Assembly (NCBI GenBank): GCA_030688135.1
Contig: JAUYIW010000032.1
Span: 1-33,060 of the forward strand
Source: Candidatus Uhrbacteria bacterium
Lineage (GTDB): Bacteria > Patescibacteriota > Patescibacteriia > UBA9934
Direction: 5' to 3'
Length of the DNA: 33,060 nt
The notes beneath the pieces are model-generated. The model saw nothing but the letters and a program-made list of their open reading frames with translations. It was not told the DNA's origin and ran no database searches. The position numbers and the translations under genes are program-made. Of the stretch, positions 7,021 to 25,945 are shown one piece after another; within the stretch, counting starts at the first letter, position 1; each line of letters begins with the position of its first letter.

Positions 7021-8811
7021 TCAGGATGTCAGAGTGGCCTTTATCCTCCGTACTCCGGCGGAGGAGGCTTCTTGTTTCTCAATCTTGAATTTACCCAAAT
7101 CGCCAGTATTCTCCACATGAGGCCCACCGCAAATCTCACTTGATAAATACCCACGCTCGTCATCACCTACAAAATAAACTTTAATCTTCCCACCCATTTG
7201 AGCGTATTTGTCCTCAAACATTCCAATTGCTCCACGTTTCTTAGCTTCCTCGATCGTCAAAAGCTCGTATCTCACTGGAAGTTTTGCATCGATCGCATCG
7301 TTTACAACCTTCTCTACCCTTTCGATCTCCTCGTCAGTCAATTTAGAATCATGCGAAAAATCGAACCGTAAACGATCTTTTGTAATATTAGAACCTTTCT
7401 GACAAACATGATCACCTAAAACCTCTCTTAATGCTTCCAGCATTAAATGCGTAGCAGTGTGTAGTTTTGTTGTTTCGGTTGATGTATCGGCAAGTCCGCC
7501 TGCAAACTTCTCGCTCGCACCAGCACGCGATAAATATTGATGTTTTTTAAACTCAGCGCCAAACGCAGCACGATCCACTTTTTGACCATGCTCCCCTGCC
7601 ACTTCCTCAGTTAACTCAAGCGGAAAGCCGAAACTCTGATACAAATCAAACGCATCCTGCCCGGTAATCTCGCCAGTCTTTTCCCAGATTTTCTGAATCT
7701 GCTTTAAGCCTTTTTCTACCGTTGCGTAAAACTTCCCTTCTTCTTTTTTAATTACTTCTTGGATGTGATCCTTGTTTTCGAGCAAATCAGGATAGGCATC
7801 GGAAAGTGAGCTAATGCTTGCTTCGGTAACAAGTGATAATGACTGCTGAGTCTCAGTAATCTTCAACATCTGTCTCACTGCCCTACGAATCAACCTACGT
7901 AAAATATAACCCTGATCCTTGTTCGATGGTTCAATACCATCGTTAATAATCATCACAGCTGAGCGTACATGATCTGCAATGATGCGCATTGATCGAGTCG
8001 TATTGTCGTCAGATCCATATTTCTTACTCGCTACTGACTCAATCGCACTAATAATCCCTGCAAACAAATCAGTATCAAAAACGCTCTTCTTTCCTTGTAA
8101 AACAGCCACGGTGCGCTCGAGCCCCATTCCAGTATCAACATTTCTTTTGGCAAGTGGTTCAAGCATCCCGTCATCAAGTCTATTAAACTGCATGAACACA
8201 TCATTCCAAATCTCAACCCAATGCGAGTCTTCCGGATCAAAAACCTCTGGAGCGTCCCCAACTCCGGTCCAATAAAACATTTCACTGTCTGGCCCTTGAG
8301 GTCCTGTGTGTTTTCCACCTGCTGGCCACCAGTTATCTTCTTTTCCAAGTTTTGCAATTCGAGATTCAGAAATCCCAAGACTTACCCACTTATCAAATGC
8401 TTCTTGATCAAATTCGGCATCATCATCACCTGCAAAAACACTCACAGCAAGCTTATCAAGCGAAATTCCAAGCCACTCCGATGATGTTAGAAAATCAAAA
8501 CTCATCTGAATAGCATCATCCTTAAAGTAATCACCAAGCGACCAATTTCCAAGCATCTCAAAGAAAGTAAGATGAGTGTTGTCACCAACTTCATCTATAT
8601 CGCCAGTTCGTACGCATTTCTGATAATCAACAAGTTTTGTCCCAGAAGGATGCTCCTCGCCCATCAAATAAGGCACCAACGGATGCATTCCAGCCGTGGT
8701 GAACAAAACTGACGGATCGTTTTCAGGAATCAAAGACGCAGAAGAAATTTGTGTATGTCCCTTTGAGACAAAAAAATCAATGTATTTCTTTCGTAATTCG
8801 TTTGCTTTCAT
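7021..8811 (-). CDS. alaS: Alanine-tRNA ligase, truncated C-terminus
   Basis: Charges tRNA-Ala and clears mischarged Ser or Gly. It has 596 residues against about 875 normally. The class II catalytic core is complete (N-terminal FTTAGMHPLVPYLMG; THLTFFEMLGNWSLGDYF), as is the tRNA-recognition region. The editing domain is also present: zinc ligands H451 and H455 (HTATH) and C561 and H565 (CGGPH). The C-terminal C-Ala (DHHA1) domain that links editing to catalysis is missing, and the frame stops inside a palindromic repeat. No C-Ala frame is visible downstream. Short AlaRS forms occur in reduced-genome lineages. The start codon abuts element D. Confidence 0.95.
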   Translation of the reverse strand: MKANELRKKYIDFFVSKGHTQISSASLIPENDPSVLFTTAGMHPLVPYLMGEEHPSGTKLVDYQKCVRTGDIDEVGDNTHLTFFEMLGNWSLGDYFKDDAIQMSFDFLTSSEWLGISLDKLAVSVFAGDDDAEFDQEAFDKWVSLGISESRIAKLGKEDNWWPAGGKHTGPQGPDSEMFYWTGVGDAPEVFDPEDSHWVEIWNDVFMQFNRLDDGMLEPLAKRNVDTGMGLERTVAVLQGKKSVFDTDLFAGIISAIESVASKKYGSDDNTTRSMRIIADHVRSAVMIINDGIEPSNKDQGYILRRLIRRAVRQMLKITETQQSLSLVTEASISSLSDAYPDLLENKDHIQEVIKKEEGKFYATVEKGLKQIQKIWEKTGEITGQDAFDLYQSFGFPLELTEEVAGEHGQKVDRAAFGAEFKKHQYLSRAGASEKFAGGLADTSTETTKLHTATHLMLEALREVLGDHVCQKGSNITKDRLRFDFSHDSKLTDEEIERVEKVVNDAIDAKLPVRYELLTIEEAKKRGAIGMFEDKYAQMGGKIKVYFVGDDERGYLSSEICGGPHVENTGDLGKFKIEKQEASSAGVRRIKATLTS

Positions 8812-8959
8812 ACCCTGTAGTGAAAACTTTGATTTATGTGTATTTACTAAAACTTATAAGATTATCTAAACTATAACTGCCATGTTCTTCTTCGAGCTAA
8901 GATACCGGAACTACTACAAACTTCAAAAACGTTTTTCAAAGTTTCTACTACGGGGCATA
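8811..8959 (-). repeat. Inverted-repeat element D, copy 1, abutting the alaS start
   Basis: TACCCTGTAGTGAAAACTTT at 8811-8830 is matched, inverted and imperfect, by a right end at 8938-8959 (AAAGTTTCTACTACGGGGCA plus two bases). The outermost bases of the left end overlap the alaS ATG. Copy 2 is at 17759-17902 and a truncated copy 3 at 15168-15212, each at a gene start in the same orientation. The internal GATAATCTTATAA on the minus strand may act as a -10 region. Confidence 0.8.
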
Positions 8960-14595: not shown

Positions 14596-15168
14596 CTAAT
14601 CTCGTAGTCTGGCATGAGTTGGACGAGTTATCCACATGTCGCGGGCGGTATCTTGATTTATTTCAAGACGTAATCTAAAAGTTGGATGCACGCGTACTAA
14701 AATGTCTTCTAATATTCTGGTCTTCTCACCAATAATATCAACAGCGACTTTTTGACCGTTTCTAATGTTCATAGAATCAGCTTCATCTGGAGAACACATA
14801 AGATGCGCAAAAGGAATCGAGACTGCGTTTTTTAAATCTACCTCGCCATCTGGTCCAACAAGTTTACATGGCGCTGATAATGTTGTATCTCCGGTTTTTG
14901 CAATAGGCGCATTCAATCCCAAAAATACTGCTTCGGTTGACGTGACTTCTACAATTGAGTTTTCCCAATTTGGACCCAATACTCGTAGGTTAAGCGAACG
15001 CTTTAACTTACCAAGGATTTCAACAGACTCCTCGTACACGTATTGTCCTGCCTGGCTTCTTTCTTGCGCGATTGTCATTGGATGCCCCACTCCAAAAAGA
15101 ACAGCCTGGTCGGCCTGAGACAAATACACGTGGGATGGAATTACATCAACCGGAATAGGTTTTGACAT
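14596..15168 (-). CDS. PduL-like phosphotransacylase with degenerate metal site
   Basis: 190 residues with the two-domain PduL (phosphate propanoyltransferase, PTAC) layout. The first half has HVYLSQADQAVLFG and QAGQYVYEESVEILG. The second has VLGPNWENSIVEV, the LVGPDGEVDLKNAVSIPFAHL block and RVHPTFRLRLEINQD. PduL normally binds two zinc ions through HxHLS, RHIHM and a late MHID histidine. Here these read HVYLS (second His to Tyr), AHLMCS (Arg and second His lost) and LEIN (His to Glu), and the phosphate-binding Arg before VEV is gone. It may be inactive, use another metal, or have another role. Its start abuts element D copy 3. Confidence 0.75.
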   Translation of the reverse strand: MSKPIPVDVIPSHVYLSQADQAVLFGVGHPMTIAQERSQAGQYVYEESVEILGKLKRSLNLRVLGPNWENSIVEVTSTEAVFLGLNAPIAKTGDTTLSAPCKLVGPDGEVDLKNAVSIPFAHLMCSPDEADSMNIRNGQKVAVDIIGEKTRILEDILVRVHPTFRLRLEINQDTARDMWITRPTHARLRD

Positions 15169-15212
15169 ACCCTGTAGTGAAAACTTTAATTATGTTAGTT
15201 CGTTTAAGCTCT
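15168..15212 (-). repeat. Element D, copy 3 (truncated)
   Basis: The same left end, TACCCTGTAGTGAAAACTTT at 15168-15187, plus about 25 bp that align with copy 2 (AA...GTT, then AAAATT). The right end is absent: the corA stop lies at 15238. As in the other copies, the first bases of the end overlap the ATG of the gene it adjoins. Confidence 0.7.
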
Positions 15213-17044: not shown

Positions 17045-17759
17045 AGTCCTCCTTTTTTGACTCGTGTCCAAAAGTATAATTAAATTTGCTGTGTCGGATT
17101 GGGCCGATCGTTAACAAGTGAAGTTCGGCTAAAATATATTTCACCCCAATAATAAATCTTCCATCGCGATCTTGCCGTCTTGTTGAAACACGTACCGGAG
17201 CAGTTGAAAGAAATCCAAACTTCCCTTTTTGTCCTGCACGATTCGCATAATCGTGGTCTTCTGCAAATATCACGGCTTCATCAAATCCACCTATTGCATA
17301 GTGAAGACTTTTGCGAACGAAAATGCAAAATCCCGGTGCGTGCGGACGCTTACTTCCCCACATTCTGGCGTACCGGTTATAAACCCTGTGAGAGATCACG
17401 TCATAGCGAGTTCCGCCAAGCGGTGCGACGTCAACAGTGGCAATATCTAAATTTCTAAACTCAAATTCCTCCAACGCAACTTGTAAAAAATTTGGATTAG
17501 TTAACTCCACATCTGCGTCGAGAAATAAGAGTACATCTCCTGTAGCAATGCTTGCGCCAATATTTCTGCCAACTCCGGGAAGCCCACCGTTAACTACCTT
17601 TGCGCCAAGCCCTGACGCAACCTTCCGCGTGTTGTCGGTAGAGTTAGCATCGGCAACAATAATTTCCACAGGCTGCATGGTCTGTTGATCAATAGACCTT
17701 AGCAGTTGCGGTAAGCAGTCCTCTTCATTTTTTGCAGGAATTATTATTGAAAGCTTCAT
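17019..17759 (-). CDS. Family 2 glycosyltransferase
   Basis: 246 residues with a GT-A fold. Motifs are IIIPAKNEED (5-14), VADANSTDNT (35-44), the metal-binding DAD (81-83, in VLLFLDADVEL), and a likely catalytic ED pair in FAEDHDYANR. No membrane helix is evident. It probably transfers a sugar to a lipid or surface polymer precursor. The first bases overlap the end of element D copy 2. The gene leads an apparent unit with DUF389 and then corA across element B. The sugar and acceptor cannot be told from sequence. Confidence 0.9.
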   Translation of the reverse strand: MKLSIIIPAKNEEDCLPQLLRSIDQQTMQPVEIIVADANSTDNTRKVASGLGAKVVNGGLPGVGRNIGASIATGDVLLFLDADVELTNPNFLQVALEEFEFRNLDIATVDVAPLGGTRYDVISHRVYNRYARMWGSKRPHAPGFCIFVRKSLHYAIGGFDEAVIFAEDHDYANRAGQKGKFGFLSTAPVRVSTRRQDRDGRFIIGVKYILAELHLLTIGPIRHSKFNYTFGHESKKEDYARGKPII

Positions 17760-17902
17760 ACCCTGTAGTGAAAACTTTAATCACGTTCCATTATTAAAGC
17801 CTTTTATAAAATTATCGGTGACTGAATGTCATAACTATTACGTAGGCCCTCTATTAAGACGATCGCCCTTCGAGCTTTTTAAAGTTTCTACTACAGGGCA
17901 TA
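17759..17902 (-). repeat. Inverted-repeat element D, copy 2, abutting the glycosyltransferase start
   Basis: 144 bp with the left end at 17759-17778 and the right end at 17881-17902 (AAAGTTTCTACTACAGGGCA then TA). The interior shares TTCGAGCT and TATAA.ATTATC blocks with copy 1. On the minus strand ATGACA, 17 bp, TTATAA could be a promoter. Confidence 0.8.
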
Positions 17903-18570: not shown

Positions 18571-19704
18571 ATGAAATCAGAATGTCCAAATAAAGAACAC
18601 TGCGGAAGCTGTGGATGGAGTCACATTCCATACGATAATCAGTTGCAGCAAAAATTAAGCGATATTAATGGATCTTTTAAATTGAAAGGTCTTGATCTTC
18701 AAGTTGAAGAGATTATGCCATCGCCACAGACTAGCCACTACCGAAATCGAATGGATTTTGTGATTGATTTTGAAGGTCGTGTGGGACTTCGTGAAAAAGG
18801 AAAATGGTGGCGTGTAATTGACGATCATACCTGTTTCATTGCTGATGAGATCATTGAAAAGGTATTTAGTATTATTAGAATATGGTCTAAAGAATCAGGT
18901 CTTAGCTATTTTGATCGCAAGTCTCATGCTGGGTTTTTGCGCTATGCCGTTGTTCGATCAACCTTGACCGGTGAAGTGATGGTAAACATTGTTACGAGCG
19001 CTCCAAATGGTGAAGAAGGGCTTGCGGAACTAAAAAAACTAGTAGATTTAGTTAATGCAACTACTGTGATTTGGTCTGTGAACAATACAGTGAGCGATGT
19101 TTCCTATGGTGATGACGTTCGTGTGATTTCTGGTCCTGGCCATATTGAAGAAAGTATTAACGGCTTTAAATATAAAATCAGTCCTAACGCATTTTTCCAA
19201 ACAAATCCACATGCTGCTCCATTGCTTATGGATACTGTTCAAGAGTTTGCAGGCGACATATCAAATAAAACTGTACTCGATCTTTACTGTGGAACAGGAT
19301 TTTTCTCTATTCCGCTAGCTAGAGTAGCTGGCAAAGTTATTGGCGTTGAGCTAGTTGCCGAAGCAATCGCTGACGCTAGGGCAAACGCAGAGATGAATCA
19401 GGTTAATATTGAATTCCATGATGCTAAAACAGAAGAGTTTGACTGGCAGTCTTTGAATCCTGATATTGTAATAATCGACCCTCCACGAAGTGGAATGCAC
19501 GACAAAGCGCTTGCCGATCTAATTCAGGCAAAGCCACCGACGATCGTATACGTTTCGTGCAACTATAAAAATCTAGCGCGCGAGCTATTGATATTGCGAA
19601 AATATTATGATGTTCAGGAAATCCGCGCAATCGATATGTTCCCACACACTCCACACGTTGAGGTGGTTGTTAAGCTGGAATTGGCAGATGCCGAAGAAAT
19701 TTAA
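18571..19704 (+). CDS. RlmD/TrmA-type RNA (uracil-C5) methyltransferase
   Basis: 377 residues from the ATG at 18571, chosen by the promoter position. The N-terminus carries an iron-sulfur cluster motif (C5, C11, C14 as C-x5-C-x2-C, plus a Cys near residue 92). The SAM-binding Rossmann core has VLDLYCGTGFFSIPLA and the IVIIDPPRSGM block. The catalytic Cys lies in VYVSCNYKNLARE. The usual N-terminal TRAM RNA-binding domain is absent, making it shorter than E. coli RlmD (433). The RNA target (23S rRNA U747/U1939 or tRNA U54) cannot be fixed by sequence, so no symbol is given. Confidence 0.9.
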   Translation: MKSECPNKEHCGSCGWSHIPYDNQLQQKLSDINGSFKLKGLDLQVEEIMPSPQTSHYRNRMDFVIDFEGRVGLREKGKWWRVIDDHTCFIADEIIEKVFSIIRIWSKESGLSYFDRKSHAGFLRYAVVRSTLTGEVMVNIVTSAPNGEEGLAELKKLVDLVNATTVIWSVNNTVSDVSYGDDVRVISGPGHIEESINGFKYKISPNAFFQTNPHAAPLLMDTVQEFAGDISNKTVLDLYCGTGFFSIPLARVAGKVIGVELVAEAIADARANAEMNQVNIEFHDAKTEEFDWQSLNPDIVIIDPPRSGMHDKALADLIQAKPPTIVYVSCNYKNLARELLILRKYYDVQEIRAIDMFPHTPHVEVVVKLELADAEEI

Positions 19705-19762
19705 AAGACTAGGTGTTAGCTTATAGGTGATAGAGACTCGGGTTTGTTAGCGTCAATTATAT

Positions 19763-19802
19763 GTGTGGCACTTTTCGTCCGATCGGTCACTTTATGCCAC
19801 AC
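19763..19802 (+). terminator. Hairpin after the rlmD-like gene
   Basis: GTGTGGCA (19763-19770) pairs perfectly with TGCCACAC (19795-19802) across a 24-base loop. The tail TTGTTAAAC is only weakly U-rich. Confidence 0.45.
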
Positions 19803-19865
19803 TTGTTAAACTACGAATCGACAACTATCGACTTTTATATATCTTACCTCTTTTCAACCTTTCGG

Positions 19866-19975
19866 AACCTAATAAACCTCCCCGTTAATCGTAAAACCTC
19901 TCTTTAATCTCTCCGTTCTTCGCATAACCTCCTAGTAATCAGATGAACCTCTCGATTCTCGTATAGCCTCCTCAG
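19866..19975. repeat. Degenerate AACCTC repeats at about 20-bp spacing
   Basis: AACCTC at 19875, 19895, 19926 and 19946 and AGCCTC at 19965 occur with spacings of 20, 31, 20 and 19 bp, three of them followed by TAATC. On the minus strand each reads GAGGTT, an SD-like core; on the plus strand it matches the 16S anti-SD core. No coding frame accompanies them. The rest of 19705-20027 shows only a microsatellite and the hairpin at 19763-19802. Confidence 0.6.
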
Positions 19976-20027
19976 CCCGTAACTTCACTAAAATCCTTAA
20001 AATTCTCTGACCTTTAGCGCAAAGTCC

Positions 20028-20056
20028 TTGACAGGGGCTGTTTTTTATGATATTGT
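20028..20056 (+). promoter_or_regulatory. Promoter of the 20205 gene
   Basis: Consensus TTGACA (20028-20033), 17 bp, TATTGT (20051-20056). Confidence 0.75.
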
Positions 20057-20068
20057 ATATTGTCGAGT

Positions 20069-20130
20069 GGTCACCTACCTCAACAAAGGACTCTAAATGT
20101 TGGCAATTTTGCCACAACTGAGGTGACCCA
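20069..20130 (+). promoter_or_regulatory. Structured leader with nine-codon upstream frame and masked SD
   Basis: GGTCACCT (20069-20076) pairs perfectly with AGGTGACC (20121-20128), covering a GAGGTGA SD. A second anti-SD, ACCTCA (20077-20082), could pair with TGAGGT (20119-20124). Inside, AAAGGA precedes an ATG at 20097 that opens a nine-codon frame (MLAILPQLR) ending in TGA at 20124-20126, in the same frame as the main gene. The codon after the SD, at 20130, is ATC. Confidence 0.6.
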
Positions 20131-20204
20131 TCTCCGACAACAACATCGCGTCGCCCGCAACTGGCGACATCATACGATCTGACGACCTCGAACTCCTAAT
20201 TCTT

Positions 20205-20564
20205 ATGCGCTTTGAAGACGGCATGTGGTACGCCTTCCCGGTGGACTCCATTCCCTACTGGGGCACGCAAGATGAAGAGATCGGCGAGATAGACAAACCT
20301 CAACGGTTTGTTCGATTCTCAAGGGGCGTGCAGCTTACAACAAAGCAGCTCCAAAAAATGGAGCGTAGTGAAAGAGTGTCTCGACAAGCACTCGACATCG
20401 CTATTTGTAAGTTCCGCTTGCTTTGGGGATATACTCCACTTTGTTGCATGCGTTGCAGCGACCCGTGGTTTGAAGATCGTGTTGCGATCGATGACCTTCC
20501 CGTTTACCAGTGCCTCTTAGACTGGATCCGGCAGAGGGTCGTCAAGATCGAACAAGCGCGTTAG
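20205..20564 (+). CDS. Hypothetical protein, solitary cassette gene with unusual start
   Basis: At least 119 residues from the ATG at 20205, which has no SD. The frame stays open back to 20127 and that stretch looks coding (after ATC: SDNNIASPATGDIIRSDDLE), so the real product may begin at 20130 with a non-canonical ATC after GAGGTGA. It may also begin at 20097 by reading through one TGA. The protein has a Trp- and Tyr-rich N-terminus (GMWYAFPVDSIPYWG), an RVSRQALDIA segment and a CCMRC cysteine cluster near residues 84-88. No family is recognised. It has its own promoter and terminator, and C-ending codons are more frequent than in its neighbours. Confidence 0.7.
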   Translation: MRFEDGMWYAFPVDSIPYWGTQDEEIGEIDKPQRFVRFSRGVQLTTKQLQKMERSERVSRQALDIAICKFRLLWGYTPLCCMRCSDPWFEDRVAIDDLPVYQCLLDWIRQRVVKIEQAR

Positions 20565-20574
20565 CGTAATCGTT

Positions 20575-20604
20575 CTGACCTACTTCGGTGGGTCAGTTCT
20601 TTTT
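20575..20604 (+). terminator. Intrinsic terminator with TTCG loop
   Basis: CTGACC-T-AC (20575-20583) and GT-G-GGTCAG (20588-20596) close a stable TTCG tetraloop, followed by TTCTTTTT. It ends two bases before the -35 of the next gene. Confidence 0.9.
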
Positions 20605-20605
20605 A

Positions 20606-20634
20606 TTGACAAAATCATAAATTAATGATAGTCT
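20606..20634 (+). promoter_or_regulatory. Promoter of the 20666 gene
   Basis: TTGACA (20606-20611), 17 bp, TAGTCT (20629-20634). Confidence 0.75.
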
Positions 20635-20665
20635 CGTTCTAGACATTTTCAACCTGGAGAGAAAA

Positions 20666-20911
20666 ATGCGACAGCTGGAACTTTTTACAAGAACACACAT
20701 CAGCGATCAGATTGAGCTACAGAAAATTCATGCCACCGAGCACCACGGCGAAAGCGGACAGGTTATTTCGCTCGACAATGCTCGCAGGAAACAAGCACTC
20801 CGAAAAATACTCAAGAGCTATGGACTCACAATCGAACAAGCGAGATGCCTCCCGCCTGAACGCGCAATCAAACTCGCGCTAGCGGTACAGCGCGAACTGC
20901 GCAAGGGCTAG
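20666..20911 (+). CDS. Small hypothetical protein, solitary cassette gene
   Basis: 81 residues, with TGGAGAG at good spacing before the ATG. The protein is helical and basic. Residues 34-81 contain VISLDNARRKQALRKILKSY, then a GLTIEQARCLPPERAIKLALAVQREL segment resembling a small helical DNA- or protein-binding module, but no known domain is recognised. It is separated from the 20205 gene by a tetraloop terminator with a promoter immediately after it. The two are thus independent units packed head to tail. Confidence 0.72.
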   Translation: MRQLELFTRTHISDQIELQKIHATEHHGESGQVISLDNARRKQALRKILKSYGLTIEQARCLPPERAIKLALAVQRELRKG

Positions 20912-20921
20912 ACCCTACCTA

Positions 20922-20946
20922 AAACCCGCCTCGTAAAGGTGGGTTT
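20922..20946 (+). terminator. Hairpin after the 20666 gene
   Basis: AAACCCGCCT (20922-20931) pairs with AGGTGGGTTT (20937-20946) with one G-T wobble and a five-base loop. The following ACTATTTCC is only modestly U-rich. Confidence 0.65.
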
Positions 20947-21542
20947 ACTATTTCCAAAAGATATTTCGCATTTCACCATTTCGAATTGATTTACTCCGAG
21001 TATGAACTGCTGCCCAAGTTGATAATCGATAAAAAATCCATTCATCGCTAGATCACAAAGCTCCTCAGGATGACAGTGGTCGAGAAATTCTGGCCTCTTA
21101 TTCTAATCGTTATATACTTTTTACTCATTTAGTAGCTCAATTCTTGCACTGTAAAACCGCCGCCTTTCCGAGCACGCCCGGCTTTGGTAGGGCAGGAGTC
21201 AGGAAATAGCATTTTTAACCCTTTCATAACAAAAATCAAGATCTACGTCTTGAAAATATATAATGCAAGGTGTCCAAAATGCCCTGACGTATGCCTGACC
21301 TAATGCCGGGCGAGCCTGCCTGCCGGCAGGCAGGCTCAGGATGACAGCAACTAGAAGATTTCTCCTCGCGACCTACAGACTCGTCGAAATGGTAACTTTC
21401 TACTTATTAAATAGATCAAACAAATCCTAACCTGGCAGATTAGATGACTCCTCCACCCAAATTGCGTATGATCCCAAACGACCTTGTCGAAATGGTATTT
21501 TTTTTGCCTCCTCCCACTTCTTTCCCTTTTTTTCACCTCATC
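20947..21542. other. Repeat-rich intergenic region without a gene
   Basis: No convincing frame in 596 bp. It contains the 22-bp perfect palindrome GCCTGCCTGCCGGCAGGC plus AGGC (21314-21335), followed by TCAGGATGACAG and shared with 7003-7031. It also holds CAGGATGACAG at 21067-21077 and a direct repeat TGTCGAAATGGTA / CGTCGAAATGGTA near 21374 and 21486. It looks like a graveyard of short dispersed repeats. Confidence 0.6.
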
Positions 21543-21788
21543 TCACACTCTCTTGATTCTCTTCACGATATGAGTCCAGCCACAACTTGAGCATGTTAGT
21601 GTTATTAGCTTTTCCTCAATATCAACTTTAACAGGTACACCACAAGACCGATTTGGACAAGTAACAATGTCTGAGTACCTATCTATACCACGTGATAATT
21701 TATCTAAAATCTTTTCCTCTATTTCCAGAGTATATTCATTTTGTTTACGATATTTTTCAGTCTTTTCTTTATACTCAGGGTTTGTCAT
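21543..21788 (-). CDS. Small zinc-ribbon protein
   Basis: 81 residues. The first 40 are charged and helical (EYKEKTEKYRKQNEYTLEIE, then EKILDKL). The C-terminal half holds a C-x4-C (CPNRSC) and a C-x2-C (CSSC) pair spaced as in a zinc ribbon. I do not recognise a specific family; such proteins often bind nucleic acid or other proteins. Its ATG lies two bases after the stop of a tiny membrane-protein gene, so the two are probably translated together. There is no independent SD. Confidence 0.65.
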   Translation of the reverse strand: MTNPEYKEKTEKYRKQNEYTLEIEEKILDKLSRGIDRYSDIVTCPNRSCGVPVKVDIEEKLITLTCSSCGWTHIVKRIKRV

Positions 21789-21790
21789 AT

Positions 21791-21913
21791 CTAAAAATGA
21801 AAAATTTCTGGATAAACTCTATACGCAGCTAACAGAAAAATAATAGTGATTACTATCACGGATAGTACTGCTACTAGACGCCATATGTTAAAACTTTTTG
21901 GTGTGTCCTCCAT
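21791..21913 (-). CDS. Tiny single-pass membrane protein
   Basis: 40 residues from the ATG at 21913: a short polar N-terminus (MEDTPKSFNIWR), one hydrophobic helix (about residues 13-30) and a short C-terminus ending in FHF. It ends two bases before the start of the zinc-ribbon gene. No strong SD is visible; a TATAAT-like sequence lies near 21930. The length, single helix and coupling to the next gene support reality, but no homologue is known to me. Confidence 0.5.
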   Translation of the reverse strand: MEDTPKSFNIWRLVAVLSVIVITIIFLLAAYRVYPEIFHF

Positions 21914-22036
21914 ATAATCTTTGTTGGAGTTATTATATCACGGTTACAATCAATCCAAAAAAAGGACGAGCAAAACGCCCATACTTTCTTATACCTGTCG
22001 TTCTGTACTACTTACTACTAACTTCTTACTCCGCGA

Positions 22037-22456
22037 TTATTTAAACATCTTCCATGTTGGTCGCATAAACAAATATGTAGCAAGCGGGCCAAGAAGACCA
22101 AGAAGTGACGATCCAACGCCTAAGCCACTAACAATATTTATGATTACAGCAAGCGCTGCTACTACAAGCATTCCGTAAAAACCCATTAACTTCCACTTAA
22201 ATAACATTACAATAAAAACAATATTCGCAGCTGAGAAAATTGCCAACACATAACTAGCCCATGCTGGAATTATCATCATGACTTCTGTTGACGATGGAGC
22301 CGCAAGATTACCAATAAATCCTAAAACTGCGCCGATTAGAATTAAAACAAGCCATGCTGTAAGCCAAAAACCACGTTGACTCTTTCCTTCGGGTTTTGAC
22401 ATAGCCCCAGCTGGCCTGCCTGACATCTGGCTAGACTCTGGATTTAAACTATCCAT
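22037..22456 (-). CDS. Four-helix membrane protein
   Basis: 139 residues. A polar N-terminus of about 28 residues precedes four hydrophobic segments (about 31-51, 62-80, 84-101 and 104-128) and a short basic end (RPTWKMFK). No family is recognised. It follows the nucleotide-chemistry genes on the same strand at a 29-bp distance, so it could be cotranscribed with them. Confidence 0.75.
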   Translation of the reverse strand: MDSLNPESSQMSGRPAGAMSKPEGKSQRGFWLTAWLVLILIGAVLGFIGNLAAPSSTEVMMIIPAWASYVLAIFSAANIVFIVMLFKWKLMGFYGMLVVAALAVIINIVSGLGVGSSLLGLLGPLATYLFMRPTWKMFK

Positions 22457-22485
22457 AAAAAAAATTATTAACTTATGTGACTAAA

Positions 22486-22938
22486 TCATACCATGTTAGC
22501 GAAATACGCAATAGAACCGTAGAGCTCAATTGACTTCATGCCTAATATTTCTTCACGGGACTCAATATTGGGAATCTTATTCAATAAATAAATTGGCTTC
22601 CCCAAATGAAACGCTAAGCCCATCTCGAGCAACGTATTTGCTCCTATGTAACTCTGAATCCCACGCTTATCTTCATTCGCCACCAATATTACGTCTGCCC
22701 ATTCAACTTTTTTAAAATGACTTCGCATTGCCTCGCTTTTCCTTTGCCAAATCCAACTATCGTCATTTGCTTCTTTCTTTCGCTGCGTATAATAGTCAAG
22801 CACAGAGATCATTTGACCGTGATCGTCTTCAATCATCGACGGCGGCAACTTCACCTCATGTCCAAACGATTCTAACTCTGCGCAGATTTCCTGCATACGA
22901 TTATAAAATGCAATGCTACCGCAAAGAGTAATTTTCAT
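22486..22938 (-). CDS. Nucleoside 2-deoxyribosyltransferase-like protein
   Basis: 150 residues with the Rossmann-like fold of the deoxyribosyltransferase/DUF4406 group. It begins MKITLCGSIAF and has a central WADVILVANEDKRGIQSYIG segment and an ANTLLEMGLAFHLGKPIYLLN block, where the E of LLEMG aligns with the catalytic Glu of the family. Members move deoxyribose between bases or hydrolyse nucleoside monophosphates. The gene starts one base after the Nudix stop and follows CYTH and Nudix genes, which suggests nucleotide salvage or house-cleaning. Confidence 0.7.
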   Translation of the reverse strand: MKITLCGSIAFYNRMQEICAELESFGHEVKLPPSMIEDDHGQMISVLDYYTQRKKEANDDSWIWQRKSEAMRSHFKKVEWADVILVANEDKRGIQSYIGANTLLEMGLAFHLGKPIYLLNKIPNIESREEILGMKSIELYGSIAYFANMV

Positions 22939-22939
22939 A

Positions 22940-23350
22940 TTATTTGAATGGCGAATACCCAGTTAACAAAAGATTCTCATTGGAAAGAAGTAGCGGTTCT
23001 GGTAGATCACCCCAATCAAACCAATGCCAGCCTTCGCATTTATGAGGTTCGCAATTTTGTACTTCCCCGCTCTTCCAATCAGCGACCATCCAAACAGTTA
23101 TGTAGTGAACGCCTTCTTCATGGCCACAATCATTTGTTGTATGAACGTGCCTAATATTGTCAATTTCGACTCCTGCCTCTTCCATTGTTTCCCGCCGAGC
23201 GCATTGCTCAAAAGATTCAAACCACTCTAAATGACCTCCTGGAGTTGACCACTTACCACCGCCAGCACCAATTCTTTTACCAAACAAAACCATGCCGTCT
23301 TTAACGATTAGTACTCCAACACCGACCTTTGGACGTCGACTCTCATCCAT
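22940..23350 (-). CDS. Nudix hydrolase
   Basis: 136 residues with a perfect Nudix box at 39-61 (G-x5-E-x7-R-E-x2-E-E-x-G-V, containing E54, E57 and E58 for metal binding). The N-terminal RPKVGVGVLIVKDGMVLFGKR segment and the GKWSTPGGHLEWFES stretch resemble NUDT15/MutT-like enzymes that hydrolyse nucleoside triphosphates or their damaged forms. The exact substrate is not determinable. It lies three bases after the CYTH gene and one base before the deoxyribosyltransferase-like gene, in a tight operon. Confidence 0.93.
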   Translation of the reverse strand: MDESRRPKVGVGVLIVKDGMVLFGKRIGAGGGKWSTPGGHLEWFESFEQCARRETMEEAGVEIDNIRHVHTTNDCGHEEGVHYITVWMVADWKSGEVQNCEPHKCEGWHWFDWGDLPEPLLLSNENLLLTGYSPFK

Positions 23351-23353
23351 AAA

Positions 23354-23866
23354 CTATAAAGCTTTATAATATTTTAGCACGTCTCCACCAGTCCAAGGCT
23401 TTGCGTCATCACGACTAAATCCAAGCTTTTCCACCCACTCAAAGACCGCCTGTTCATCTTTACCTTCTATTTCCATTAACGTAGGAACTCCTGGGATTGT
23501 ATCGAACTCAAATAACACGCCTTCCAAAGAATAAGATAAACGATGCTTCTTATAACTATCAACTTCTGCATAGTCTAGCCTACCCATAATCTCCTTCATG
23601 ATCTCAAAATTATCAACGCTTACCTGAAGCTCTTCTTCAATTTTAACACCCTTTTTACTAATCTTGTGTTTGAAAGTGAGTTCATTAGTCTCTCCCTTTG
23701 TTCTCAACCGAAGTCTGTAATCCTGATTTTTTAGAGAGCGACTCGCAGTGTCATAATATATTACATCCATGTCTCCTTCAAAAAATTTCTTTGCCCCTAA
23801 AGCTAAAAGCTTAGCTACAACATCATCAACATTTACTTCTAGAATTTTTACTTCTACTTCTTTCAT
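23354..23866 (-). CDS. CYTH-domain protein (class IV adenylate cyclase / triphosphatase type)
   Basis: 170 residues. The defining ExExK motif is at 3-7 (EVEVK). The following strands carry alternating charged residues (YRLRLRTKG, ELTFKHK, KHRLSYSLEGVLFEFDTIPGVPTLMEIEG) that line the triphosphate tunnel. Known members are CyaB-type adenylate cyclases, thiamine triphosphatases or inorganic triphosphatases. Sequence alone cannot choose, but triphosphatase is plausible beside a Nudix hydrolase. It is the first gene of the cluster, and repeat E1 lies 26 bp upstream of its start. Confidence 0.9.
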   Translation of the reverse strand: MKEVEVKILEVNVDDVVAKLLALGAKKFFEGDMDVIYYDTASRSLKNQDYRLRLRTKGETNELTFKHKISKKGVKIEEELQVSVDNFEIMKEIMGRLDYAEVDSYKKHRLSYSLEGVLFEFDTIPGVPTLMEIEGKDEQAVFEWVEKLGFSRDDAKPWTGGDVLKYYKAL

Positions 23867-23892
23867 AGTGATAGCTTATAGGTTTTAGGTGT

Positions 23893-23982
23893 TACCACCT
23901 TTCGCCAAGCTGAAGGTGGTCCGCCCACGTTCTGCGTGGCGGAGGGATTAGGCTCGCGTAGGGGCAACCCAATGTGGTTGCC
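23893..23982. repeat. 90-bp repeat E1, inverted partner of E2
   Basis: Identical to the reverse complement of 24980-25069 except for one base. Three hairpins lie in series: ACCACCTT/AAGGTGGT (23894-23901 with 23913-23920), a CCGCC.ACG/CGTGGCGG stem, and GGCAACC/GGTTGCC. No coding content. Confidence 0.9.
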
Positions 23983-23999
23983 CGGTGGGTATTAGGTTT

Positions 24000-24059
24000 T
24001 ACCACCTTTCGCAAAACCGTTGGTGGTCCGCCTACGTTATGTGTGGCGGAGGAATCACC
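24000..24059. repeat. Degenerate half copy of repeat E
   Basis: ACCACCTTTCGCAAAACC, then TGGTGGTCCGCCTACG and GTGTGGCGGAGGAATC, aligns with the first 60 bp of E1, with mismatches. It follows E1 in direct orientation. The rest of 24060-24303 has G-rich hairpin-prone tracts (GGGGGTTTGGGGGACGGAGT then ACCCCC; GGGTTACAGAACCC) and no gene. Confidence 0.7.
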
Positions 24060-24303
24060 AAATGCCGAGTGTGATCGGAAGGCGGAAGCAGTTTCTTTCC
24101 TCCATTTCTTTGCTGCTTCAAAGAAATAGGGCCTGGGGGTTTGGGGGACGGAGTACCCCCATTGGTTAATCGAGATGTGTAGGAGTTGGGTTACAGAACC
24201 CTTTTGACAAGAGGGCGTGGAACCCCCGCCCCTACGGTTAGGATAATAACTCCGTTGTGACTTTAGACTTTCGGCCTCCTTAGTGTGCCTCATACTCGTA
24301 TAT

Positions 24304-24332
24304 TTGACAAATTCGATAATTTGCTGCATTAT
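24304..24332 (+). promoter_or_regulatory. Promoter of the 24380 gene
   Basis: TTGACA (24304-24309), 17 bp, CATTAT (24327-24332). Confidence 0.7.
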
Positions 24333-24379
24333 CTTCTTGCGCCGGGAAACGCCACATCAAACCATTAGAAAAGAGAAAA

Positions 24380-24895
24380 ATGAAGGTCTTCCTTTTTTAC
24401 CTCGCAGATCGCGATTTCTTCAACTGTTGCCTAGCGCACATAGGGGGCCAAAAGTTCAAAACCAAGGGATACGATCCATGTCGAATGGACAAGATCATTG
24501 ACGCTCGCTACAGAAGACGGGGCTATCAAGTATATTGGTTACTACTAGGTAGGCCAAATAACAAGGCTATACCTTTTCTCGACAGATTCCCTGACCAGCT
24601 GAGTCCAGCGGATGAAGACGTCATCATCCCTGCTGGAATCTGCTTCCGTAGCCTCACATTACAACGCATAAAGCCAAAGCCTAGCTATGTGCTAAAGCAA
24701 CTTCCACGACCAACGTCACACCTAGTACTTGGTGGTTTTCACAGATATGAATGCGTGGAGCAGTTTGCAACGTCCGCAAGGGTCTCTGGCGTGAACACCG
24801 ACATCGACGACGACCTTACCGACCAATTCTTCAGAATCACAAATGAACAGGGAGAAATCCCGCTGATTCGTCAAGAAATTCGCCCTGTTTACTGA
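24380..24895 (+). CDS. Hypothetical protein, solitary cassette gene between inverted repeats
   Basis: 171 residues from the ATG after GAAAAGAG. The protein is basic overall, with three cysteines and no membrane helix or signal peptide. Recognisable stretches are YRRRGYQVYWLLLGRPNNKA, RFPDQLSPADEDVIIPAGIC and a C-terminal TDQFFRITNEQGEIPLIRQE. No known domain is seen. The gene sits alone on the plus strand with its own promoter and terminator, and the whole unit is enclosed by near-identical 90-bp inverted repeats E1 and E2, which makes mobility plausible (inference). Confidence 0.7.
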   Translation: MKVFLFYLADRDFFNCCLAHIGGQKFKTKGYDPCRMDKIIDARYRRRGYQVYWLLLGRPNNKAIPFLDRFPDQLSPADEDVIIPAGICFRSLTLQRIKPKPSYVLKQLPRPTSHLVLGGFHRYECVEQFATSARVSGVNTDIDDDLTDQFFRITNEQGEIPLIRQEIRPVY

Positions 24896-24904
24896 CAGGC
24901 ACTT

Positions 24905-24935
24905 ACTGTCGTACTTGCGACAGTTTTCTTTTTTC
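24905..24935 (+). terminator. Intrinsic terminator of the 24380 gene
   Basis: ACTGTCG (24905-24911) pairs with CGACAGT (24918-24924), followed by TTTCTTTTTT. Confidence 0.9.
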
Positions 24936-24979
24936 ACGATTTGAGCTATGGTGGAGTCCATAATACCTATATTCTACCT

Positions 24980-25069
24980 GGCAACCACATTGGGTTGCCA
25001 CTACGCGAGCCTAATCCCTCCGCCACGCAGAACGTGGGCGGACCACCTTCAGCTTGGCGAAAGGTGGTA
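24980..25069. repeat. 90-bp repeat E2, inverted partner of E1
   Basis: 89 of 90 bases match the reverse complement of 23893-23982. It ends 18 bp before the era ATG, so the era leader is repeat sequence followed by a TAACCTA microsatellite. No promoter or SD for era is visible outside it. Confidence 0.9.
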
Positions 25070-25087
25070 AAACCTATAACCTAACCT

Positions 25088-25945
25088 ATGAAATCAGGAT
25101 TTGCGGTCATGATTGGCCGATCAAACGTTGGAAAATCAACTTTACTTAACTCCCTTGTTGGCACAAAAGTGGCAATTACAACTCCAAAGCCACAAACCAC
25201 TCGCAAGCCAGTTCAAGGAGTGCTCACAACTGACGAAGGTCAGGTTGTTTTTGTGGATACTCCTGGAGTAATGCAAAAAGCAAGAGATCCACTTACAAAA
25301 AAATTATTGCAATGGGTTGAAGATTCACTAAGAGATATTGAAGTAATACTTTATGTTGTCGATCCTACTCGTCCAATTGGAAATGAGGAAAAGAAAGCAA
25401 TGCAGTTAATAGCAGGTGTTCAAAAACCAAAACTACTCGTAATTAATAAAATCGATGAAAAATCATCAAATAGAAACATAGCCTTTTATAGAGATCTTTT
25501 TAATAACGATACCTTTGACGCAATGGTTGAAGTTTCAGCGATTCGAGGAACAAATTTGGATCTTATAAAGCGTTGGATTTTTGAAAACTTACCCGAAGGA
25601 GAATTAATGTATCCAGAAAGTGACATTTCAAATATGCGGAAAGAGGAGCAAATCGCTGAACTCATTCGTGAAAAACTATTTCTGCGTTTGCGCCAAGAAG
25701 TTCCCTACTCTACTCATGTTGAGGTAGAAGAGATTGACCAGCGAAAAAATGGAGTTGTCTATATTAAGGCAGTTATATACACAACAGACGAAAGATATAA
25801 AAGTATGATAATCGGAAAAGAAGGACGCGGTATTTCCGAAATCGGACGCGCAACGCGTAATGAACTTGAAGCTGTAACGCAACAAAAATTCTACCTAGAT
25901 CTTAATGTCCAGGTAGATTCTAGATGGCTTGATCGACTTGTTTAG
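25088..25945 (+). CDS. era: GTPase Era
   Basis: A ribosome-assembly GTPase that binds the 3' end of 16S rRNA. It has 285 residues. The G1 loop is GRSNVGKS (10-17), G3 is DTPG (57-60) and G4 is NKID (120-123). The C-terminal KH RNA-binding domain (about 200-285) includes IIGKEGRGISEIGRATRNEL and the closing VQVDSRWLDRL. Length is near the usual 295-300. No SD precedes the ATG and the leader is repeat E2. The stop codon directly abuts the stop of the convergent thioredoxin-like gene. Confidence 0.96.
   Translation: MKSGFAVMIGRSNVGKSTLLNSLVGTKVAITTPKPQTTRKPVQGVLTTDEGQVVFVDTPGVMQKARDPLTKKLLQWVEDSLRDIEVILYVVDPTRPIGNEEKKAMQLIAGVQKPKLLVINKIDEKSSNRNIAFYRDLFNNDTFDAMVEVSAIRGTNLDLIKRWIFENLPEGELMYPESDISNMRKEEQIAELIREKLFLRLRQEVPYSTHVEVEEIDQRKNGVVYIKAVIYTTDERYKSMIIGKEGRGISEIGRATRNELEAVTQQKFYLDLNVQVDSRWLDRLV

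Follow-up and report, generated by a model that had tools for sequence, protein, structure and literature searches.

A nine-codon leader frame ending in the putative ribosome binding site of an orphan gene with a possible ATC start codon in Candidatus Uhrbacteria

The window analysed here is the whole contig JAUYIW010000032.1 (33,060 bp) of a Candidatus Uhrbacteria genome of 1.04 Mb, which is assembled in 82 contigs. An orphan gene on the plus strand (20130–20564, 144 codons counted from an ATC codon, with the stop codon TAG at 20564) is located between rumA, which ends at 19704, and era (25088). The two genes are closer together in three related genomes of one genus, where era is found within 1.5 kb after rumA, and in other relatives different genes are present between rumA and era. 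As the content of the rumA–era interval differs among the relatives, it is a lineage-variable stretch. Extra genes in the interval 19704–25088 are present here and in the related genome G008. The GC content of the orphan gene is 52%, compared with 42% for the genome, and its codon use is atypical.

Relatives of the 144-residue product were searched for in 22 other genomes of the family, 72 of the order and 380 of the class (overlapping sets, about 430 genomes in all), and none was found. No match was detected in the GTDB r220 species genomes, IMG/VR, phages or plasmids, where the GTDB r220 and IMG/VR scans used exact short peptide patterns that detect close relatives only. The product belongs to no Pfam family and to no PHROG family. 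Weak matches with E values of 0.004–0.1 were inspected and found to be spurious. A small SD-led ORF beside rumA in the genome G012 (L089) is vaguely alike and is not homologous (shuffle p 0.35). The AlphaFold model of the orphan protein is unusable, with a pLDDT of 39.5.

On the 3′ side of the orphan gene, a hairpin of 9 pairs resembling an intrinsic terminator (CTGACCTACTTCGGTGGGTCAG followed by TTCTTTTT) is located at 20575–20604 on the plus strand. Its position suggests a one-gene unit, and the promoter at 20028–20056 together with this hairpin probably delimits a single-gene transcription unit. A second orphan gene, also SD-led, is present at 20666–20911 on the plus strand. It encodes 81 aa, is predicted to be helical (pLDDT 66), and had no relatives in the searches performed for it. 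Its N-terminus, MRQLELF, resembles the sliding-clamp-binding motif QLxLF.

The promoter of the orphan gene is sigma-70-like, with TTGACA at 20028–20033, a spacer of 17 nt, and TATTGT at 20051–20056 preceded by a TG (extended −10). It matches the consensus at 10 of the 12 positions and is the joint best in the region. Judged from position only, the TSS would lie at about 20062–20064. An 8-bp inverted repeat follows on the plus strand, the 5′ arm GGTCACCT at 20069–20076 and the 3′ arm AGGTGACC at 20121–20128. A search of the 1.04 Mb genome for this 8+8 repeat, with arms 20–50 nt apart, gave this single case (control, 0). Between the two arms, AAAGGA (20085–20090) is located six nucleotides before the ATG at 20097, which opens a predicted nine-codon frame, MLAILPQLR (20097–20126). 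The stop codon of this mini-frame, TGA at 20124–20126, is included in the sequence GAGGTGA (20120–20126), the SD of the main gene, and three nucleotides later the ATC at 20130–20132 is reached. The ATC is in frame with the mini-frame, and the frame is open from there to the TAG at 20564. All of these elements had been described in the original prediction, and each of them was found again at the same position. No ATG, GTG or TTG is present in frame between 20130 and 20205, so that the first canonical start is the ATG at 20205–20207. As had been claimed, this ATG has no SD, though it does have a T at −1. No riboswitch or leader of Rfam was matched, and no second copy of the leader was found in the genome.

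The anti-SD tail GGATCACCTCCTTT is present in the 16S rRNA of relatives (12 loci, same family); the genome itself has no assembled 16S. In 760 kb, 61 ATG genes have a properly spaced SD of at least 6 nt, versus 38 and 23 with reversed and complemented control motifs. In the case of 4-nt SD motifs, the counts near and far from starts are 48 and 47, a contrast of nil, and T is found at −1 in 73% of the ATG starts of this genome. An SD is used by a minority of the genes, and most genes apparently start without one. The arrangement GAGGTGA-N3-start also precedes the canonical starts of three genuine SD genes of this genome (L016, L060 and L070). In a scan of the 760 kb for SD-led non-canonical codons that precede the first canonical start, codon 20130 ranked top: its SD measures 7 nt and is optimally spaced, and the extension is 25 codons long. 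No other non-canonical codon of the sampled genome combines an SD of at least 7 nt with an extension of more than a few codons. Scrambled-SD controls gave some 7-nt matches before non-canonical codons genome-wide as well; thus, the fit between the SD and the ATC is local, not genome-wide, evidence.

Codons 20130–20204 score −0.045 bits per codon, versus −0.046 in the rest of the gene, and their frame is ahead of both alternatives by roughly 0.5 bits per codon. When a GC-matched codon model was derived from the GC-rich genes of this genome, the frame contrast was attained by 3.8% of the stop-free windows in non-coding sequence, and 77% of coding windows were at or below it. The coding signal over the 25 codons is suggestive, not decisive. 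The original prediction held that 20130–20204 looks coding, and the codon statistics and the GC-matched model agree with it. Its idea of a start at ATC 20130 is likewise favoured over ATG 20205 by the SD, the N3 spacing, the anti-SD in the 16S tails of relatives and the coding character. In the living lineage, translation is likely to begin at codon 20130, when a true ATC and a miscalled or mutated ATG are taken together. A genuine ATC, on the one hand, and an ATG changed to ATC by mutation or consensus error, on the other, are about as likely as each other. The infC gene of this genome probably starts with ATG, so that ATC 20130 is without a known precedent here. If initiation occurs at ATC 20130, residue 1 is formyl-Met.

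The RNA 20062–20140 folds at −26.6 kcal/mol (z −3.78), and none of 200 shuffles was as stable. In the ensemble the main SD is 87% paired, and the pairing is split between the 8-bp hairpin and an alternative, local 6-bp triloop hairpin, GAGGUG-ACC-CAUCUC (20120–20134, plus strand). The local hairpin encloses the spacer between the SD and the start, and buries the AUC too. With the 5′ arm removed or the mini-frame blocked in silico, the main SD is still about 83–86% paired, because the local hairpin takes over. The mini-frame SD, AAAGGA, is about 50% unpaired. The masking of the SD by a single hairpin, as originally proposed, is retained in part: the 8-bp repeat does cover the SD, but two alternative hairpins share in masking it. 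Chance estimates were obtained by shuffling the dinucleotides of the 67-nt leader 20,000 times. As post hoc values for a site chosen for looking unusual, a 7-nt SD correctly spaced before ATC is found in 0.26% of the shuffles, an SD-led mini-ORF whose end is no more than 12 nt from the start in 0.3% (0.08% in frame), and an 8-nt inverted repeat in 2.8%.

The reading that we prefer, tentatively, combines a start at AUC 20130, a GAGGUGA RBS held in hairpins, and coupling from the nine-codon frame, with weak expression of the main gene. Transcription from the promoter at 20028–20056 would give a short, probably single-gene transcript for the lineage-specific protein. On this transcript the main RBS, GAGGUGA at 20120–20126, would be folded away in one of the two alternative hairpins, with AUC 20130 as the first codon, and the mini-frame start at 20097 would be better exposed than the main start. 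The leader stop at 20124–20126 is inside the ribosome footprint of the start 20130. A ribosome terminating at this UGA would cover both hairpins, its footprint reaching past 20135, and may then reinitiate at the AUC, 3 nt beyond the stop. The expected outcome is weak, translationally coupled expression of the main gene. We infer translation of the mini-frame, reinitiation and the function of the AUC in vivo from this arrangement, and coupling from the mini-frame to the main gene is plausible. As only a ribosome at the TGA would open both hairpins, the geometry favours termination–reinitiation over a stalling switch. A regulatory signal is not indicated, and coupling at a constant low level is more probable than a switch. 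A two-lock switch, in which the ATC start of a lineage-specific Patescibacteria gene is enclosed in the dual hairpin and opened only by ribosomes terminating on the nine-codon leader, is quite unlikely.

Many bacterial genes have a leader frame near their main start, and reinitiation after such frames has been put forward as a means of raising expression, the commonest distance between the leader stop and the main start being 10–11 (PMC4833913). The present locus resembles them in its short SD-led frame, in the stop beside the main start, and in the RBS hairpin overlapping both the stop and the SD. It differs from them in that the main start is ATC and the gap between stop and start is 3 nt instead of 10–11. 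Natural non-canonical starts include the ATC of Streptomyces infC, the GTC of sigR, and the ATT of infC (PMC5472188). Like those starts, ATC 20130 is a near-cognate codon with a good SD, and it would be expected to be weak and IF3-sensitive; the GTC of Streptomyces sigR is a regulated parallel to it. The SD is at the normal spacing (GAGGTGA-N3-ATC), and no better canonical start is nearby, as would be expected of a gene with a near-cognate start. The infC and sigR starts are documented in the literature, whereas ATC 20130 is found in one orphan gene of one assembly.

The strongest rival to the coupled AUC start also places initiation at codon 20130. It holds that this codon was or is ATG, changed to ATC at 20132 either by an error of the assembly or consensus or by a recent crippling mutation, and that the mini-frame is partly coincidental. 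The assembly is a draft of the metagenome type in 82 contigs, and an ATG here would give a textbook SD-N3-ATG with the N-terminus MSDNN. The ATC completes the 6-bp local inverted repeat GAGGTG-ACC-CATCTC, and near-palindromes are prone to templated mutation. One event would account for everything downstream of 20126; however, an SD-led mini-frame with its stop in the RBS would stay a 0.3% coincidence. We regard this reading as a serious possibility, though one with less than an even chance. A start at ATG 20205 without SD would turn 20063–20204 into a 142-nt structured untranslated leader. The T-ATG context is typical of this genome (73%), and the nil contrast of 4-nt SD motifs implies that most genes lack an SD. 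With this start, however, the SD at 20120 would be left unused, the hydrophobic stretch DLELLILMRFEDG would be cut, and 20130–20204 scores as coding; such a start is rather unlikely. The inverted repeat can also be read at the level of DNA, with GGTCACC and GGTGACC as repressor half-sites and the RNA hairpin as a by-product. The arms are perfect, their spacing of 52 bp corresponds to an integral number of turns (about five), they are just downstream of the promoter, and a third GGTCAC is present at 19785. Against this, GGTCACC/GGTGACC sites occur 39 times in 760 kb with no other such pair, and the 3′ arm overlaps the SD, where the anti-SD dictates the sequence. A repressor site is improbable here.

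Two further readings come from the original prediction, and both lost ground. In the case of ermC-like attenuation, drug or amino-acid stalling on MLAILPQLR would open the hairpin and switch the gene on. As in ermC/ermCL, a promoter, a leader frame with its own accessible SD, and a hairpin hiding the main SD are present in the right order, and 3 of the 9 leader codons are Leu. Unlike in ermC/ermCL, the leader stop is inside the main RBS, so plain termination already opens the RBS, and two hairpins compete for one SD, which stays locally paired once the 5′ arm is freed. The gene downstream, whose product has no Pfam or PHROG match, is not recognised as a methyltransferase or as another resistance or biosynthesis gene, no homologue in the collections searched shows conservation of the leader, and MLAILPQLR is not known to contain a stall motif. 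With no recognised stall peptide, antibiotic or regulatory target or conserved leader, and with the SD still paired after loss of the 5′ arm, attenuation in the strict sense is very improbable. Readthrough of UGA-C at 20124, or a base error in this codon, would yield a single protein from ATG 20097; no other stop interrupts the frame before or after the TGA, and the ATG of the mini-frame has an SD. UGA is, however, an ordinary stop in this genome, where 60 of the 406 genes of at least 200 aa end in TGA. By this count, the genome is also not one of the UGA-recoded Patescibacteria (code 25). As it would become a coincidence that a strong SD is positioned precisely for codon 20130, readthrough is scarcely credible.

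In the locus, known parts are combined in an unusual way around one orphan gene. As each component is already known, it would be a further case and would not establish a new principle. Should the ATC start be true, gene callers will misplace the start of this gene by 25 codons, and the locus would exemplify, for a little-studied bacterial group, a near-cognate start that coupling to a leader frame makes usable. Should the ATC be an error, the locus is a warning against reading biology from single bases of draft assemblies.

Other repeated sequences were observed in the window. Downstream of rumA, an imperfect palindrome, GTGTGGCA...TGCCACAC, is located at 19763–19802 and contains another GGTCAC. 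Between rumA and the orphan gene, the minus strand at 19820–19995 carries a degenerate array of units of about 20–30 nt that resemble GAGGTTxxxCGAxxAACGG.

Ten unrelated genes of this genome (L109–L118) are preceded by a near-identical leader, mostly TAAGTTTTAGTAGATACACATAAATCAAAGTTTTCACTACAGGGTATG, whose end coincides exactly with their start codon; the genes include AlaRS, a pyruvate-kinase-like gene and a glycosyltransferase. In the window it is present three times on the minus strand, at 8809–8830, 15166–15187 and 17757–17778, with the gene starts at 8811, 15168 and 17759, respectively. This shared leader carries no SD, and with up to 1 mismatch allowed in 22 nt it was absent from 71 other genomes of the order. 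It is a candidate for a dispersed element, or for a common promoter/5′UTR, that supplies the start codon.
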